DNA of 38,690 nt, taken from assembly GCF_023501975.1 (NCBI RefSeq), contig NZ_JAMFLH010000016.1, forward strand, positions 1 through 38,690, given 5' to 3'. This document shows, piece by piece, positions 29,933-34,587 of this stretch. Origin of the DNA: Altererythrobacter sp. KTW20L. Lineage in GTDB: Bacteria; Pseudomonadota; Alphaproteobacteria; Sphingomonadales; Sphingomonadaceae. The stretch's first letter is position 1, and each line of letters starts with the position of its first letter. The position numbers and the translations under genes were made by a program. The notes under the pieces were generated by a model, which was not told where the DNA came from, searched no databases, and saw nothing but the letters and a program-made list of their open reading frames with translations.

Positions 29933-30181
29933 CTAAAGATCCACCCCGTTGGCGATGGCTTCCAGCTTGCGGATGCGTTCCTTGAGGTCGGCGATCTCCA
30001 TCCGCTGGTATCCTTCTCGCGATCCGCCCTCGGCTTCAGCGGGAGCGTGAGAAATGCCCGCGCGGCGGTCGAGTTCGCGTTCCTTCAGCGCCAGCCAGCC
30101 CTGCCAGCCTTTCAGCATGGCGGTGGCGAGGATCACCAGGCCCAGCAGAGAAGCGCTGGCCAACAGCAGTTGTTCGCTCAT
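29933..30181 (-). CDS. PspB-like membrane/coiled-coil protein, array member 5
   Basis: 82 residues: a membrane helix (about 4-24), a charged linker, then a coiled coil ending ADLKERIRKLEAIANGVDL. The core LKERIRKLEAIA matches the PspB heptad pattern (E. coli RIQALESIL), but the IEALR tail found in the other members is missing. The ATG at 30181 has GAGGG 4 bases upstream. It is the last gene of the psp array. The function is inferred from the locus. Confidence 0.8.
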   Translation of the reverse strand: MSEQLLLASASLLGLVILATAMLKGWQGWLALKERELDRRAGISHAPAEAEGGSREGYQRMEIADLKERIRKLEAIANGVDL

Positions 30182-30197
30182 CATTCCCTCTCTTTTC

Positions 30198-30449
30198 CTA
30201 TTCGTCCCGCAACTGTTCGATTTCGGAAGACAGGCGCTTGGCGGCGCGGTCCTCGGTGGCAATGCGTTCGAGCACTTTCAGGCGCTCCTTCAGGTCGTGC
30301 ACTTCTTCCTCCAGCTCAAGCTCGCGGGGCGAGGGGCCTTCGGGCGGCATCGTGTCCTGCCGGTTGATGTCGCGCTGGCGGCGATTTGATATCAGCATAA
30401 CCAGCATCATCACGGCAAACATGGCAAAGATGGCAAGCGGCCAGTTCAA
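30198..30449 (-). CDS. PspB-like membrane/coiled-coil protein, array member 4
   Basis: 83 residues: a membrane helix (about 3-20), then RRQRD, and a coiled coil with LKERLKVLERIATED followed by LSSEIEQLRDE. It uses a rare TTG start overlapping the upstream stop (TTGA), with AAGGAG 8 bases before. This indicates tight translational coupling. It is clearly related to members 2, 3 and 5 by the same core. Confidence 0.8.
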   Translation of the reverse strand: MNWPLAIFAMFAVMMLVMLISNRRQRDINRQDTMPPEGPSPRELELEEEVHDLKERLKVLERIATEDRAAKRLSSEIEQLRDE

Positions 30450-30793
30450 CGCACTTTCTCCTTCACGTCGATTGGCTCCTTCAGGTCGATCGGCACGCCG
30501 CTGTCTGCCACGTGCTGCTCATACCGAAGCGCCTCGATCTCGCGCGCCAGGTCGGCGCTGACGTTCGAGCCGCTGTCGGTGGCGATGCATTCCAGCACGC
30601 GCAGGCGCTGTTCCATGTTGTCCAGCCGGGCGGCGGCTTCTGCTACGAGTCCACCGGTGCCGCCAGCGTGTTCGAGTTCCAGCTTGCGCTCCTTGAATGC
30701 CATCTGGCGTTTGGCGACCTCCTTGATCGTGCCCATCATGATCGCGAAGACGACCACGATGAAGCAGAAGACGAAGACAATGGTCATATCCAT
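30446..30793 (-). CDS. PspB-like membrane/coiled-coil protein, array member 3
   Basis: 115 residues: a hydrophobic N-terminus (about 3-24), a charged KRQMAFKERKLELEH helix, then RLRVLECIATDSGSNVSADL and AREIEALRYEQ. The C-terminal part after the tail is acidic/basic (DLKEPIDVKEKVR). A Cys replaces the usual Arg in LERIATDSG. The start could be three residues further in (30787). It is separated from member 2 by only 3 bases. Confidence 0.8.
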   Translation of the reverse strand: MDMTIVFVFCFIVVVFAIMMGTIKEVAKRQMAFKERKLELEHAGGTGGLVAEAAARLDNMEQRLRVLECIATDSGSNVSADLAREIEALRYEQHVADSGVPIDLKEPIDVKEKVR

Positions 30794-30796
30794 GGC

Positions 30797-31132
30797 TCAG
30801 TTCACTCCGTCTTTGTCACGAAGGGCTTCGATCTGGTGGGTCAGGCCAAAGCCGCTGTCGGTCACGATCCGCTCCACCGTGGCGAGACGTTCCTTCATGC
30901 TCGACAGTTCGGCGCGCAGGGCGGTGTTTTCCTGGGTGATCAGCTTGACCCGTTCCATGGATTCGCTGGTCATGGATGGCTTCAGGGACTGGCCCCACAT
31001 GCCTTCCAGCGGATAGCCGTTCTTGATCTTGAGCCGGGTGGTGTGGACCGAGGCGGCAATGCCCGCCGCGCCGAGGCCGATACCACCGGCTACCATCCAG
31101 CCGATGTAGGGGAGCAGGTCGGCAAATTCCAT
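30797..31132 (-). CDS. PspB-like membrane/coiled-coil protein, array member 2
   Basis: 111 residues: a Gly/Ala-rich membrane helix (about 9-29), a longer linker with YPLEGMWGQSLKP, then a coiled coil ending RLATVERIVTDSGFGLTHQI and EALRDKD. The ATG overlaps the upstream stop (TGATG). A GTG three bases earlier is the alternative start. Confidence 0.8.
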   Translation of the reverse strand: MEFADLLPYIGWMVAGGIGLGAAGIAASVHTTRLKIKNGYPLEGMWGQSLKPSMTSESMERVKLITQENTALRAELSSMKERLATVERIVTDSGFGLTHQIEALRDKDGVN

Positions 31133-31431
31133 CACACACGCTCCTTCTCGAAGGCCAGCGGGACACCCGCCGGGCTGGCGGGTTCATCGCGCAGCGCATC
31201 GATCTGTGCGGCCAGCGAAGGGCCGCTGTCGGTGGCGATGCGTTCCAGCACGCGGACACGGTCCTCCAGTTCCTTGACCCGGCCTGCCAGTTCGGCGTTC
31301 GGGCTTTCGTTGTCGCTCGAGCCCAGGTGCGCACGCATCTCGGCCATCTTGCGCTGGTGGGTGGTCCAGATCGCCACGATCGGGATGGCCAGGGCGAAGA
31401 TCGGGATCAGCAGAGGTGATATTTCGAACAT
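31132..31431 (-). CDS. PspB-like membrane/coiled-coil protein, array member 1
   Basis: 99 residues: a membrane helix (about 6-23), then HQRKMAEMRAHLG, a coiled coil KELEDRVRVLERIATDSG and the tail LAAQIDALRDE. Eleven consecutive G residues on the coding strand (31448-31438) lie 6 bases before the ATG and form or abut the ribosome site. Slippage in that run could alter translation. It follows pspC by 29 bases. Confidence 0.85.
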   Translation of the reverse strand: MFEISPLLIPIFALAIPIVAIWTTHQRKMAEMRAHLGSSDNESPNAELAGRVKELEDRVRVLERIATDSGPSLAAQIDALRDEPASPAGVPLAFEKERV

Positions 31432-31437
31432 GGTATT

Positions 31438-31448
31438 CCCCCCCCCCC
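31438..31448 (-). repeat. 11-base homopolymer in the ribosome-site region
   Basis: A run of 11 C on the plus strand (G on the coding strand) lies 6 to 16 bases before the start of array member 1. Such tracts are prone to replication slippage and to sequencing error. Confidence 0.8.
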
Positions 31449-31460
31449 GGAACAGGTTGT

Positions 31461-31838
31461 TCAGCGCAGCCGTTCGATCTCGTCGGACAGGCGCGGGTTG
31501 CTGGAGACGTAGTACTGCTCGACCTCGGCCAGGCGGCGGTCGATGGCGCGGAACTGGCTGCGGATCTCGCGCGCCGTGCGCTTGGGCGACTGGCGCACGC
31601 GCTGCCAGTACTGCTGCTCCTTGTCGTCGCGGTAGAGGTGCGGCGGCTTCTTGCTCAACAGAATCCACATCAGGAGATAGGCCGGCACGGTGATCCACGA
31701 CAGGACGGGCAGGGTGAGCAGGAAGCCGAACCGGACCCAGAACGGGTTGATCCCGGTATAGTCCGCAACCCCGGCGCAGACGCCGCCCAGCTTGCCGGTC
31801 TCCTTGTCGCGATAGAGCGTGGTGTGGGTCGTATTCAC
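31461..31838 (-). CDS. pspC: PspC domain protein with IERLR tail
   Basis: 125 residues. The PspC core KLGGVCAGVADYTGINPFWV is followed by a membrane helix (about 36-62) and a charged C-terminal helix ending VEQYYVSSNPRLSDEIERLR. The tail resembles the IEALR ending of the PspB-like array members, not that of ordinary PspC. The GTG start overlaps the preceding PspC stop (GTGA). Confidence 0.9.
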   Translation of the reverse strand: MNTTHTTLYRDKETGKLGGVCAGVADYTGINPFWVRFGFLLTLPVLSWITVPAYLLMWILLSKKPPHLYRDDKEQQYWQRVRQSPKRTAREIRSQFRAIDRRLAEVEQYYVSSNPRLSDEIERLR

Positions 31839-32119
31839 TGGTCCTCGTTCCTCTTGTGCGGGCGCCTCGGCCCTTGGTCATCGCCAAATATTTCCCGGTA
31901 GTTCTCGCGGTACAGGTGCACCGGCTTCCTCGGCAGGGCCAAGGCCAGCGCGATGTAGCCCAGGATCGCGATCGGCGCGGCGGGGGTCAGGATCAGGATG
32001 ATCACGGCCAGTCTTGGCCACATGCTGTTGATCCCGGCGTAATCCGCAATTCCCGCACAGACCCCGAACAATTTTCCGTTGAACTTGTCGAGGTAGAGGC
32101 GGTCGCGCTCATCACTCAC
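31835..32119 (-). CDS. PspC domain protein, first copy in the locus
   Basis: 94 residues with KLFGVCAGIADYAGINSMWP and a membrane helix (about 37-61), then a short charged tail without the IERLR motif. It uses a GTG start overlapping the pspB stop. It is a tandem duplicate of the following gene: both share LYxDK, GVCAGxADYxGIN and the RKPxHLYR-type segment. Confidence 0.9.
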   Translation of the reverse strand: MSDERDRLYLDKFNGKLFGVCAGIADYAGINSMWPRLAVIILILTPAAPIAILGYIALALALPRKPVHLYRENYREIFGDDQGPRRPHKRNEDQ

Positions 32120-32409
32120 CTGCGGGCTCCCTTCTTCACCGCGAGCATCTGTTCCAGTTCGGCCAGCTGGTCGTTGTCTTCCTGCAGGTCGGCCAGCACG
32201 CGGGCGGGCTTGAACTCCGCATGGTCGCTGGCGACCAGCCGTTCGACCGTGTCCATCCGTTCATCCAGCCGCTTGGCGAGTTGGTAGAGCTCCTCCAGCA
32301 GCGTCTCGTCGTCCACGGTGATGGTCGCGGCAGTTTTCCACTTGGTGACATAGTGCAGGATCACCCAGGGAACCCCGATGAAACCTGCCAGGACAAAGAA
32401 TTCATCCAC
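32116..32409 (-). CDS. pspB: Envelope stress response protein PspB
   Basis: 97 residues: N-terminal membrane helix (about 4-21), then a coiled coil with LAKRLDERMDTVERLVASDH, matching the family core around LEsILDAE in E. coli. PspB helps PspC release PspA from PspF. It is longer than the E. coli protein (74 residues) because of an extra C-terminal coiled coil. GTG start with GGAGG 8 bases upstream. Confidence 0.9.
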   Translation of the reverse strand: MDEFFVLAGFIGVPWVILHYVTKWKTAATITVDDETLLEELYQLAKRLDERMDTVERLVASDHAEFKPARVLADLQEDNDQLAELEQMLAVKKGARR

Positions 32410-32412
32410 CGC

Positions 32413-33111
32413 TCAATCCTCCTTCTTCGCTGCATCGGGGGCAGGGGTGCCCATGCCGAGAGCGCGCTTCATTTCTTCCAGTTCCTCGTCCACCTTGTCG
32501 GTCCCCTCGAGCGCGGCGAATTCATCCGCCAGCGTGCGCGGCCCGCCGGACATGCCCAGCGCATCGGCGCGGCCTTCGGCGTAATCGACACGGCGTTCGA
32601 GCTGGTCGAACCGGGTCAGAGCCTCGTCCACCCGCTCGTTGGTCATCAGGCTGCGCAGCTTGAAGCGGTTTTCCGCGCTTTCGAGGCGGGCGGCGATCTG
32701 GCTCTGCCGGCTGCGGGCTTCGCGCAGGCGGTTCTGCAGCTTGTTGATGTCCACTTCATAGGCCCGCAGTGCATCGTCGAGCACGGTCACTTCGGCCTTC
32801 AGCTGTTCGGCCATGTCGGCCGCCTTGCGCCGCTCGACCAGCGCGGCGCGGGCCAGGTCCTCGCGGTTCTTCGACAGGGCGAGCTGCGCCTTGTCGGCCC
32901 AGTCGGCCTGCAGCTTGTCGAGCTTGACCGAATGGCGGTGCATTTCCTTCTGGTCGGCAATGGTGCGGGCAGCGCTGGCGCGCACTTCCACCAGCGTTTC
33001 CTCCATCTCCAGGATGATCATGCGGATCATCTTGGAAGGATCGTCGGCCTGGTCCAGCAGCTCGTTGAAATTGGCGGCGATGATATCACGGGTACGGGAA
33101 AAAATGCCCAT
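32413..33111 (-). CDS. pspA: Phage shock protein A
   Basis: A 232-residue ESCRT-III-like coiled-coil protein that binds stressed inner membrane and inhibits PspF. It begins with the standard MGIFSRTRDIIAANFNELLD and contains the DPSKMIRMIILEMEETLVEV hairpin. AGGAG lies 8 bases before this ATG. The frame is open 48 codons further upstream, to an ATG at 33255 that overlaps the previous gene's stop and also has a GGAG site, so a 280-residue form is possible (see the extension feature). Confidence 0.92.
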   Translation of the reverse strand: MGIFSRTRDIIAANFNELLDQADDPSKMIRMIILEMEETLVEVRASAARTIADQKEMHRHSVKLDKLQADWADKAQLALSKNREDLARAALVERRKAADMAEQLKAEVTVLDDALRAYEVDINKLQNRLREARSRQSQIAARLESAENRFKLRSLMTNERVDEALTRFDQLERRVDYAEGRADALGMSGGPRTLADEFAALEGTDKVDEELEEMKRALGMGTPAPDAAKKED

Positions 33112-33255
33112 CAAGGCGGCTCCTGCAGAAGTGGGGTAGGCGGCGGACAGCGAATTGCGGGTGGGGGTGGGGCTGGTGCGCAGACGCTCGATCTCGCGAT
33201 CAAGGCGCGAATTGTCGCTGATCGGGGTCAGCTGGTTGCGCGTTTCGTCGCTCAT
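33112..33255 (-). other. In-frame 48-codon extension ahead of pspA
   Basis: From ATG 33255 the sequence begins MSDETRNQLTPISDNSRLDR, continues EIERLR and ends SAAYPTSAGAAL before the usual PspA Met. The ATG overlaps the upstream stop (ATGA) and follows GGAG by 5 bases. The SRLDREIERLR segment echoes the tail of pspC and of the array members. It may be a true N-terminal extension or a second start. Confidence 0.55.
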
Positions 33256-33428
33256 GCCAGCTCCACCATCGGCACCGCGATCACCGGCGCGCCCGAATAG
33301 CTGGTCGGCTGGTAGCGCGGGTGGGCTTCGGCCTGGGCGATCGCGAACAGGTTGAACGCGACCATCGCGGCCACGCTCACCAGCGCGGACAGGCCGAGCT
33401 TGCTGGCGAAGAAACGGTGGTCGATCAT
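33252..33428 (-). CDS. Small membrane protein, first gene of the psp operon
   Basis: 58 residues with one membrane helix (about 10-32), then EAHPRYQPTSYSGAPVIAVP. The ATG at 33428 is preferred because AGGAG is 9 bases upstream; the ATG at 33437 would have no spacing. The stop overlaps the extended pspA start. No family is recognised. It is the first product of the sigma-54 transcript. Confidence 0.7.
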   Translation of the reverse strand: MIDHRFFASKLGLSALVSVAAMVAFNLFAIAQAEAHPRYQPTSYSGAPVIAVPMVELA

Positions 33429-33463
33429 CTTTTTCATCTCCTGAACGGTGTATGGCAGATGAT

Positions 33464-33480
33464 TTGCAAGCGCCGTGCCA
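33464..33480 (-). promoter_or_regulatory. Sigma-54 promoter of the psp operon
   Basis: On the minus strand TGGCACG-N4-TTGCA is a full match to the -24/-12 consensus with correct spacing. The GG is at 33479-33478 and the GC at 33467-33466. It lies about 40 bases before the 33428 start. It is the best promoter in the window. Confidence 0.9.
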
Positions 33481-33558: not shown

Positions 33559-34587
33559 ATGGAGCGGGGAAATCAGTTTGTCGGCCAGTCGGGCGCCTTT
33601 CTCGATGCGGTGGAACGCGCCAGCCGCGCCGCTCCATTGCGCCGCCCGGTGCTGGTGATCGGCGAGCGCGGGACCGGCAAGGAACTGATCGCCGAACGCC
33701 TCCACCGCCTGTCGAACAGGTGGGAAGAACCGCTGGTCACGATGAACTGCGCGGCCCTGCCCGAAACGCTGATCGAGGCCGAGCTGTTCGGGCATGAGGC
33801 GGGCGCCTTCACCGGCGCCACCCGCGCCCGCGAAGGGCGGTTCGAGGAGGCCGACAAGGGCACGCTGTTTCTCGACGAACTCGCCACGCTCTCCATGGGC
33901 GCACAGGAACGCCTGCTGCGCGCGGTGGAATATGGCGAGGTGACACGCATCGGCTCGTCCCGCCCGATCCGGGTGGACGTGCGGATCGTGGCGGCCACCA
34001 ACGAGGACCTGCCGCGCATGGCGGCGGAAGGGCGCTTCCGCCTCGACCTGCTCGACCGGCTGTGCTTCGAAGTCATCACCCTCCCGCCCCTGCGGGTGCG
34101 CGAGGGGGATATTCCGGTGCTGGCCGACTACTTCGGGCGGCGCATGGCGGCGGAACTGGGTTGGGAAGAATGGCCGGGCTTTGCCGCCCACGTGGCCGAG
34201 GCGATGGAACAGCACCCCTGGCCCGGCAACGTGCGCGAACTGCGCAACGTGGTGGAGCGGGCAATCTACCGGTGGGATGACTGGTCCGAACCTGTCGGCC
34301 ATGTCCAGTTCGATCCGTTCGACAGCCCGTGGAAACCCGCAGGATCGCCACGGGCAGCAGCGACCGAAGGCACCAGCGCTCCCCACCAGCCATCCCCCGC
34401 GCCCGATCATTCGCAAGTGACCGACCTGCGCGCGGCGGTGGACCTGCATGAAAAGACCATCGTCGAACACGCGCTGGGTCGCCACCGGTGGAACCAGCGC
34501 CAGACGGCTGCCGCGCTCGGCCTGTCCTATGACCAGTTGCGTCATTGCCTGAAGAAGCACAGCATCACCGGCAGCCCGCCGGAATAG
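33559..34587 (+). CDS. pspF: Phage shock operon activator PspF
   Basis: A 342-residue sigma-54 activator without a regulatory N-terminal domain, as expected for PspF. Walker A is GERGTGKE (35-42), GAFTGA is at 82-87, Walker B is KGTLFLDELA, and the [15 protein letters not shown] motif is present. The C-terminal Fis-type helix-turn-helix is RWNQRQTAAALGLSYDQLRH. A Pro/Ala-rich linker (about 265-295) separates the AAA+ and DNA-binding parts. ATG at 33559; it has no ribosome site and a promoter that would start at the ATG, suggesting leaderless translation. PspA would inhibit it. Confidence 0.93.
   Translation: MERGNQFVGQSGAFLDAVERASRAAPLRRPVLVIGERGTGKELIAERLHRLSNRWEEPLVTMNCAALPETLIEAELFGHEAGAFTGATRAREGRFEEADKGTLFLDELATLSMGAQERLLRAVEYGEVTRIGSSRPIRVDVRIVAATNEDLPRMAAEGRFRLDLLDRLCFEVITLPPLRVREGDIPVLADYFGRRMAAELGWEEWPGFAAHVAEAMEQHPWPGNVRELRNVVERAIYRWDDWSEPVGHVQFDPFDSPWKPAGSPRAAATEGTSAPHQPSPAPDHSQVTDLRAAVDLHEKTIVEHALGRHRWNQRQTAAALGLSYDQLRHCLKKHSITGSPPE

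Follow-up and report, generated by a model that had tools for sequence, protein, structure and literature searches.

Why does a psp operon that already contains pspB and two pspC genes carry five more genes encoding small membrane proteins? This question is raised by a stretch of DNA of 38,690 nucleotides from Altererythrobacter sp. KTW20L (contig NZ_JAMFLH010000016.1, positions 1 to 38,690, hereinafter the window), whose source genome has a length of 3.09 Mb. The five genes, designated b1–b5, form an array downstream of pspC. This array is a new variant of the already known psp system, and as anatomy it is well supported. According to profile comparisons, the products of b1–b4 have a common cytoplasmic module of about 35 residues with kinship to both the PspC tail and PspB. 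As for the function, a probability of roughly 0.5 is given to the reading that the array encodes tandem one-helix membrane adaptors, expanded in sphingomonads, which would be alternative partners of PspC and PspA and would tune the capture of PspA and the release of PspF.

The psp operon and its array

The preliminary description had placed five genes downstream of pspA-pspB-pspC-pspC. All five open reading frames (ORFs) were found on the minus strand, and all four preceding genes were identified by profile matches. The order on the minus strand is the sigma54 site, a leader ORF, pspA, pspB, pspC1, pspC2, and b1–b5, followed by sufE and a DUF454 gene. The features are as follows (E, expect value; aa, amino acids):

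33559–34587, plus strand: pspF, divergent sigma54 activator (TIGR02974, 474.1 bits against a cut-off of 443.6; PF00158); start codon picked by eye
33466–33480, minus strand: sigma54 (−24/−12) promoter TGGCAC-N5-TTGC, the sole exact match in the window
33252–33437, minus strand: leader ORF of 61 aa lying between promoter and pspA; it overlaps the long PspA start
32413–33255, minus strand: pspA, putative long form, extended N-terminally and in frame with the core (PF04012, E = 1.7e-36; TIGR02977 above cut-off)
32413–33111, minus strand: pspA core, with its own start and an AGGAG ribosome site
33179–33207, minus strand: RLxxEIExLR motif in the PspA extension, one of three matches in the window (0.00 expected, 100 shuffles)
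32116–32409, minus strand: pspB, GTG start (PF06667, 65.2 bits; TIGR02976, 81.2 bits; both above cut-off)
31835–32119, minus strand: pspC1, 94 aa, PspC domain without a cytoplasmic tail (PF04024, 53.9 bits)
31461–31838, minus strand: pspC2, full-length PspC with the tail end RLSDEIERLR (TIGR02978, 127.6 bits, above cut-off); motif at 31465–31493
31132–31431, minus strand: b1, type T1, 99 aa, ATG start (module match E = 1.1e-17)
30797–31132, minus strand: b2, type T2b, 111 aa, ATG start, KxGYPLExxWG linker (module match E = 4.5e-16); modelled helices 3–37 and 56–106
30446–30793, minus strand: b3, type T3, 115 aa, ATG start (module match E = 1.4e-11)
30198–30449, minus strand: b4, type T4, 83 aa, TTG start (module match E = 5.5e-11); RLxxEIExLR at 30208–30236
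29933–30181, minus strand: b5, type T5, 82 aa, ATG start; half of the module only (LKERIRKLEAIA), no module match

In each of the b1–b5 products, a single hydrophobic stretch at the N-terminus is followed further on by an (L/V)ExI core. Thus, the PspB-like layout with a common core, which had been proposed for all five, is present in all of them, with the reservation that b5 retains only the first half of the module. The array genes are co-directional, and the spacings in the row pspC2-b1-b2-b3-b4-b5 are 29, −1, 3, −4, and 16 bases; together with the one perfect sigma54 site, they bear out the earlier view that the genes overlap or abut and belong to one operon. With a divergent pspF above the TIGR02974 cut-off and a perfect sigma54 site before pspA, the locus is a psp operon of the PspF/sigma54 type. 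When at most one mismatch was allowed, the sigma54 pattern gave 10 matches in the window versus 4.5 expected.

The window was compared with loci of the sphingomonad family, which comprise the best 80 of the 523 confirmed matches to the window PspA and further relatives, identical duplicates of the region after pspA having been removed. Since they were drawn from the best PspA matches, these family loci are mostly close relatives. Two loci in which pspC was not assigned (L093 and L108) were left out of the counts, and the parser still mislabels some genes. Some loci stop at contig ends, so that the array sizes there are lower bounds. Three to nine small genes were found downstream of pspC in 97 of the 97 parsed loci, before sufE where the parse extended that far, and in all 97 they are encoded together with pspA and pspC. 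The array consists of three genes in 8 loci, four in 17, five in 27, six in 33, seven in 9, eight in 2, and nine in 1. The array is therefore present in the psp loci of related genomes, and the objection from its absence, foreseen in the preliminary description, falls. The 513 array proteins form eight similarity clusters, which were merged into six types. Their usual order is T1-T2a-T2b-T3-T4-T5, with losses or repeats (T1, T2b, T3, T4, and T5 in the window), and the types recur in order across genera. Among the 120 listed of the 698 relatives of b1, those with names are mostly annotated as "hypothetical protein"; a few have unrelated names, and none is named PspB.

In 93 of 95 relative loci, a sigma54-like site (a looser pattern) precedes pspA, compared with 3 of 95 on the control strand; within the operon, such a site was found in 1 of 97 loci. 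From pspA to the last array gene, 699 of the 709 intergenic gaps in the relative loci do not exceed 60 bases, and 399 are zero or overlapping. Since the gaps are short and the sigma54-like site lies upstream and almost never inside, pspA through the array can be considered, as far as sequence can show, one PspF-controlled unit.

Several side observations can be noted in this part of the operon. A tail-less additional pspC such as pspC1 is uncommon among the parsed family loci: the arrangement pspB-pspC-pspC was found there only in the window and in L033, with L225 providing another case among the distant loci. In the leader ORF, the relatives have the form FFxSKLGxAALVSIAAM...VELA; a crude test detected a similar ORF in 65 of 97 loci, and a Pfam scan of the window ORF gave no match. 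A run of 11 G is located at 31433–31443, in the region of the b1 ribosome site and outside any frame, while the longest runs in the other loci are of 2–6. This is possibly a slippage (phase variation) site or a sequencing slip.

The common module and its kinship to PspB and PspC

The array proteins are predicted to consist, like PspB, of an N-terminal membrane helix and a subsequent cytoplasmic helix. Lysine and arginine residues are more numerous after the membrane helix than before it in 510 of the 513 proteins, so the module should face the cytoplasm; the mean hydropathy exceeds 1.6 in 481 of the 513. In the monomer models of b2 and pspC2 (pLDDT, the predicted local distance difference test score, of 73.5 and 70.7), the membrane part forms a helix and the cytoplasmic part a long one in both cases. 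A search of solved structures with pspC2 yielded a single match at the level of chance (E = 0.94). Between types within one genome, the module is 51% identical, versus 18% for the first 35 residues (214 pairs from 40 sampled loci, T5 excluded), which suggests different anchors and one output.

Profiles were compared with most of the membrane part excluded; the controls were reversed profiles and, for each pair, 40 shuffles preserving the hydrophobic pattern. The mutual probabilities of T1–T4 are 97.7–99.8%, with z values of 14–34 above the shuffles. Generic coiled coils as an explanation for T1–T4 were ruled out by these controls, in agreement with the earlier expectation of similarity beyond a coiled coil, whereas T5 remains weak. 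The T5 profile matches T4 (91%) and T3 (79%) and is weakly similar to T2b (34%) and T1 (25%). Against the PspC tail of their own family, the probabilities are 95.6% for T2b (z 16.9), 79% for T2a, 64% for T3, 59% for T4, 15% for T1, and 0% for T5. Against the PspC tails of other alphaproteobacteria, they are 86% for T2b, 84% for T2a, 78% for T1, 68% for T3, 11% for T5, and 7% for T4, and against PspB of other alphaproteobacteria, 89% for T1, 86% for T3, 80% for T2a, 62% for T4, 56% for T2b, and 4% for T5. Judging from these profiles, the link of the module to PspB and PspC is real but uneven.

In the preliminary description, all five genes were considered to encode PspB-type proteins, and a significant PspB match for at least three of them was named as a test of this. 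None of the five passes the curated PspB cut-offs, so that this test fails on single sequences; the best values belong to b1 (PF06667, 20.9 against 25.6 bits; TIGR02976, 21.7 against 51.7 bits). In the profile comparison, the outcome was split: the kinship held with respect to PspB of other alphaproteobacteria, with the values for T1, T3, and T2a given above, and all types scored low with PspB of the own family. The PspC tail of the own family is a closer relative of T2b than PspB is, and for T2a (79%) the two are equally close. The PspC domain PF04024 had no match in b1–b5, and b2 and b3 match TIGR02978 with E values of 0.0024 and 0.0063, far below the cut-off. One of three tested standalone proteins with the module matches both TIGR02976 (E = 2.2e-10) and TIGR02978 (E = 3.2e-6), in both cases below the cut-offs; thus, the standalone and array proteins tie PspB to the PspC tail.

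A midpoint-rooted tree without support values was built from sampled full-length proteins, in which the module is short. In this tree, the array types cluster with standalone proteins of other lineages having one membrane helix, and PspB is separate, which runs counter to the classification of the five as PspB-type. The array as a set of duplicates of the resident PspB was rejected, with caution, on this tree position and the low scores with PspB of the own family. T4 is located beside single genes of two other families (f5 and f8) and genes of minimal arrays. T5 is nested in T3, and one T3 protein and one outside protein are found among other types; therefore, the types are not clean clades. 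Our reading of the tree is that a standalone T4-like gene may have entered the psp operon and then duplicated.

A module profile of 35 residues was built from T1–T4. In its own genome, it finds b1–b4 (E from 1.1e-17 to 5.5e-11), then the pspC2 tail (E = 0.19) and a sequence on another contig (E = 0.37). Matches were found in 276 of 298 genomes of the family: 207 with three to five, 22 with one, 23 with two, and 24 with at least six. At the level of the class, the module was detected in 6 of 289 genomes, four of them in the family, and one of the two others (G119) has its match in a long unrelated-looking frame, which may be chance. Of the 46 positive genomes in a draw of 398 from the phylum, 19 belong to the family, and the other 27 have one or two matches. 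The standalone single-transmembrane (single-TM) module proteins (L206–L213) come from other classes of the phylum, probably gammaproteobacteria, and from other alphaproteobacteria. As a side observation, L206, from another class of the phylum, has two adjacent module genes, which are not next to pspA within the stretch read.

Among the eight distant family loci, T5 alone follows pspC in L217 and L218, L219 has one T4-like gene, and L216 has none. A T4-like gene and T5 are present in L220 and L222, T5 follows a poorly parsed gene in L221, and L225 has four genes. With zero to four array genes in these loci, the range of three to nine belongs to close relatives and not to the whole family. Among the loci listed outside the family, the operon is mostly pspA-pspB-pspC; in two loci (L146 and L151, family f8), a single module gene occurs further along, and L188 carries an additional PspB-like gene together with an additional pspC. 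Additionally, two pspA loci in opposite orientation were found about 40 kb apart in one genome (G575, contig C3, near 3.58 and 3.62 Mb), with equal-scoring array matches; this could be a duplication of the whole locus or an assembly effect.

The RLxxEIExLR motif and the long form of PspA

In the relatives, PspA has an in-frame N-terminal extension (33111–33255 on the minus strand of the window), which contains the string SRLDxEVERLRxSPTPT. A strict pattern detects this motif in 89 of 97 loci, and seven more were recognized by eye (weak in L087); it is absent in L182. For eleven codons of the extension, the summed base entropy is 6.5 bits at the first codon position, 2.9 at the second, and 15.0 at the third. 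The low entropy at the first two positions compared with the third fits a translated and selected peptide. The eight distant family loci are without the extension; this pattern follows the tree and provides no independent test.

A similar string, RLSxEIERLR, ends PspC. As a DNA pattern on both strands of the window, RLxxE[IV]ExLR has three matches, in the PspA extension, pspC2, and b4, against 0.00 expected. The slightly looser pattern R[LFI]xxE[IV][ED]xLR was searched in six frames of 96 relative loci (1.07 Mb), where it has 213 matches and the opposite strand has none. Of these matches, 90 lie in PspC, 77 in the PspA extension, and 44 in array genes; the remaining two, located elsewhere, resemble T4 genes overlooked by the parser. 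Thus, in the loci analysed, the motif is nearly restricted to the PspC tail, the PspA extension, and the array genes, in its strict form mainly T4. The consensus lines of T1–T3 mostly have a looser IExLR.

At the ordinary PspA start, a ribosome site of at least four bases is present in 96 of 96 loci, compared with about 23% of in-frame places inside pspA. Judging from these counts, PspA of ordinary length is surely made, and the long form is probably made as well, its own start being used.

Possible roles of the array

PspB and PspC of Yersinia associate in a membrane complex, and the C-terminal cytoplasmic domain of PspC binds PspA in the on state (PMC5596341). In E. coli, the PspC zipper is required for interaction with PspA and for signalling (PMC3068692). 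In the adaptor reading, the types would differ in their membrane anchor and linker, and T1–T4 (b1–b4 in the window) would present the same helical module to the cytoplasm. If the module acts as reported for the enterobacterial PspC tail, it would capture PspA in the on state and so free PspF, and the array would offer PspC and PspA a number of alternative partners. Each membrane helix may respond to a membrane state of its own, and both stress sensing and the recruitment of PspA would then fall to a mixed set of adaptors instead of one PspB–PspC pair. The long form of PspA, which has the same motif, might compete in cis for that docking site. What is based on sequence here are the genes, the operon, the homology of T1–T4, the profile link to PspB and PspC, the conservation, and the motif common to PspC, PspA, and T4. 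The proposal of the preliminary description, a multi-subunit sensor or alternative PspA partners, appears plausible.

A number of facts weigh against this reading. Every type scores low against PspB of its own family (0.4–29%), T1 reaches just 15% with its own PspC tail, and the direct match of PspB with the PspC tail is weak, from 1% in the own family to 47% in other alphaproteobacteria. T5, with half of the module and no PspB or PspC link, is nevertheless the sole array gene after pspC in L217 and L218. The strict motif occurs in just 44 array proteins (32 T4, 7 T2b, 3 T2a, 2 T3, and no T1) and, in the window array, is confined to b4. A ribosome site of at least four bases accompanies the best long PspA start in just 51 of 94 loci. 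The monomer models of b2 and pspC2 are of modest confidence, and the mechanism as such is carried over from enterobacteria. Finally, within the stretches read, the standalone relatives have no pspA next to them, so a role in Psp is not required of the module.

This last point bears on the view that the module serves some process outside Psp, for example as a general membrane scaffold, and was merely captured by the psp operon. Besides the standalone proteins of other lineages, the genomes L214 and L215 of the family speak for it, with their small zinc-ribbon proteins (DUF6487-like, just below the cut-off), in which the module is C-terminal and which are encoded away from psp. We consider this view unlikely, given that pspA is present in 20 of 20 picked module-positive genomes of the family, that 14 of the 20 listed (out of 22) module-negative ones have no PspA match (of the other six, five have one above the cut-off and one has a fragment), and that the array has a motif in common with PspA and PspC. 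A more tenable though doubtful alternative is that the array proteins are effectors, i.e., anchors or scaffolds holding PspA assemblies at the damaged membrane without control of PspF. Array genes located downstream in an induced operon are what is expected of effectors, and PspB and PspC of Yersinia have an effector role apart from regulation (PMC5596341). However, it is the regulation-linked parts of PspB and PspC that the module resembles, and the retention of distinct types in order would be left unexplained.

Simple dosage, with redundant PspB duplicates and no division of labour, would agree with the copy number of three to nine among relatives and with the PspB duplicates noted in operons in a published survey (PMC11237479). 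It is nevertheless very improbable: the array genes cluster apart from PspB, the order of types recurs across genera, and the anchors differ strongly. That there is no real family at all and the genes encode unrelated short membrane proteins with generic coiled coils can hardly be maintained. Matches of single sequences in Pfam are indeed weak, and several of them are eukaryotic coiled coils; for T1–T4, this idea is refuted by profile scores far above the shuffles and reversed profiles, with T5 as the weakest member, and arrays were found in every parsed locus.

To return to the adaptor reading, a more specific form of it can be advanced as a tentative suggestion. RLxxEIExLR may be a docking peptide of the PspC tail, the array proteins (T4, and in a looser form T1–T3), and the long PspA. 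The distribution of PspA between PspF, the membrane, and itself would then be set by proteins that compete, in cis and in trans, for a single site, and the array would consist of modular readers of the membrane state gained, lost, and duplicated between species. This form is given lower odds because the strict motif is rare outside T4 and the start of the long PspA is weakly marked.

The array bears on the sensing of membrane damage by PspB and PspC and on their signalling to PspA. One PspB with a panel of adaptors having varied anchors and a common module can be considered a natural experiment that separates the sensor (anchor) from the output (module), and the peptide common to PspA, PspC, and T4 is a ten-residue candidate contact. 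Under the adaptor reading, small proteins mostly labelled as hypothetical in databases would also gain a first function.

Comparison with known systems

Psp systems have been surveyed (PMC9239133 and PMC11237479), and the accessible parts of these two surveys describe no array this large, no order of types, and no PspA extension. A wider literature search, with most subscription journals outside its reach, turned up nothing closer. The work of Ravi et al. 2024 (PMC11237479) mentions "PspB duplicates" in psp operons; the array is comparable to them, whereas its size, its types and their order, and the PspA extension are not described in the accessible parts of that work. The same work reports a divergent PspB fused to PspC. 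The idea that a part of PspC is PspB-like is common to both; it is a fusion in that case, whereas the genes of the array are free-standing. The standalone single-TM proteins (L206–L213) have the same module and layout as the array proteins and differ in that there are one or two matches per genome, with no pspA alongside within the stretches read.

PspB (PF06667, TIGR02976) has in common with the array proteins the N-terminal membrane helix, the charged linker, the cytoplasmic (L/V)ExI helix, and the location in a PspF/sigma54 operon with pspA and pspC. In contrast to PspB, b1–b5 are under the curated cut-offs, form a separate group in the tree, and occur several per operon alongside a true pspB; furthermore, T1–T4 have a second half (IExLR), which is not seen in the PspB consensus lines. 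The module and the terminal IExLR recall the PspC tail (the C-terminal part of TIGR02978), most clearly in T2b (95.6%) and unevenly in the other types; unlike PspC, the array proteins are without the PF04024 domain and have only one membrane helix.

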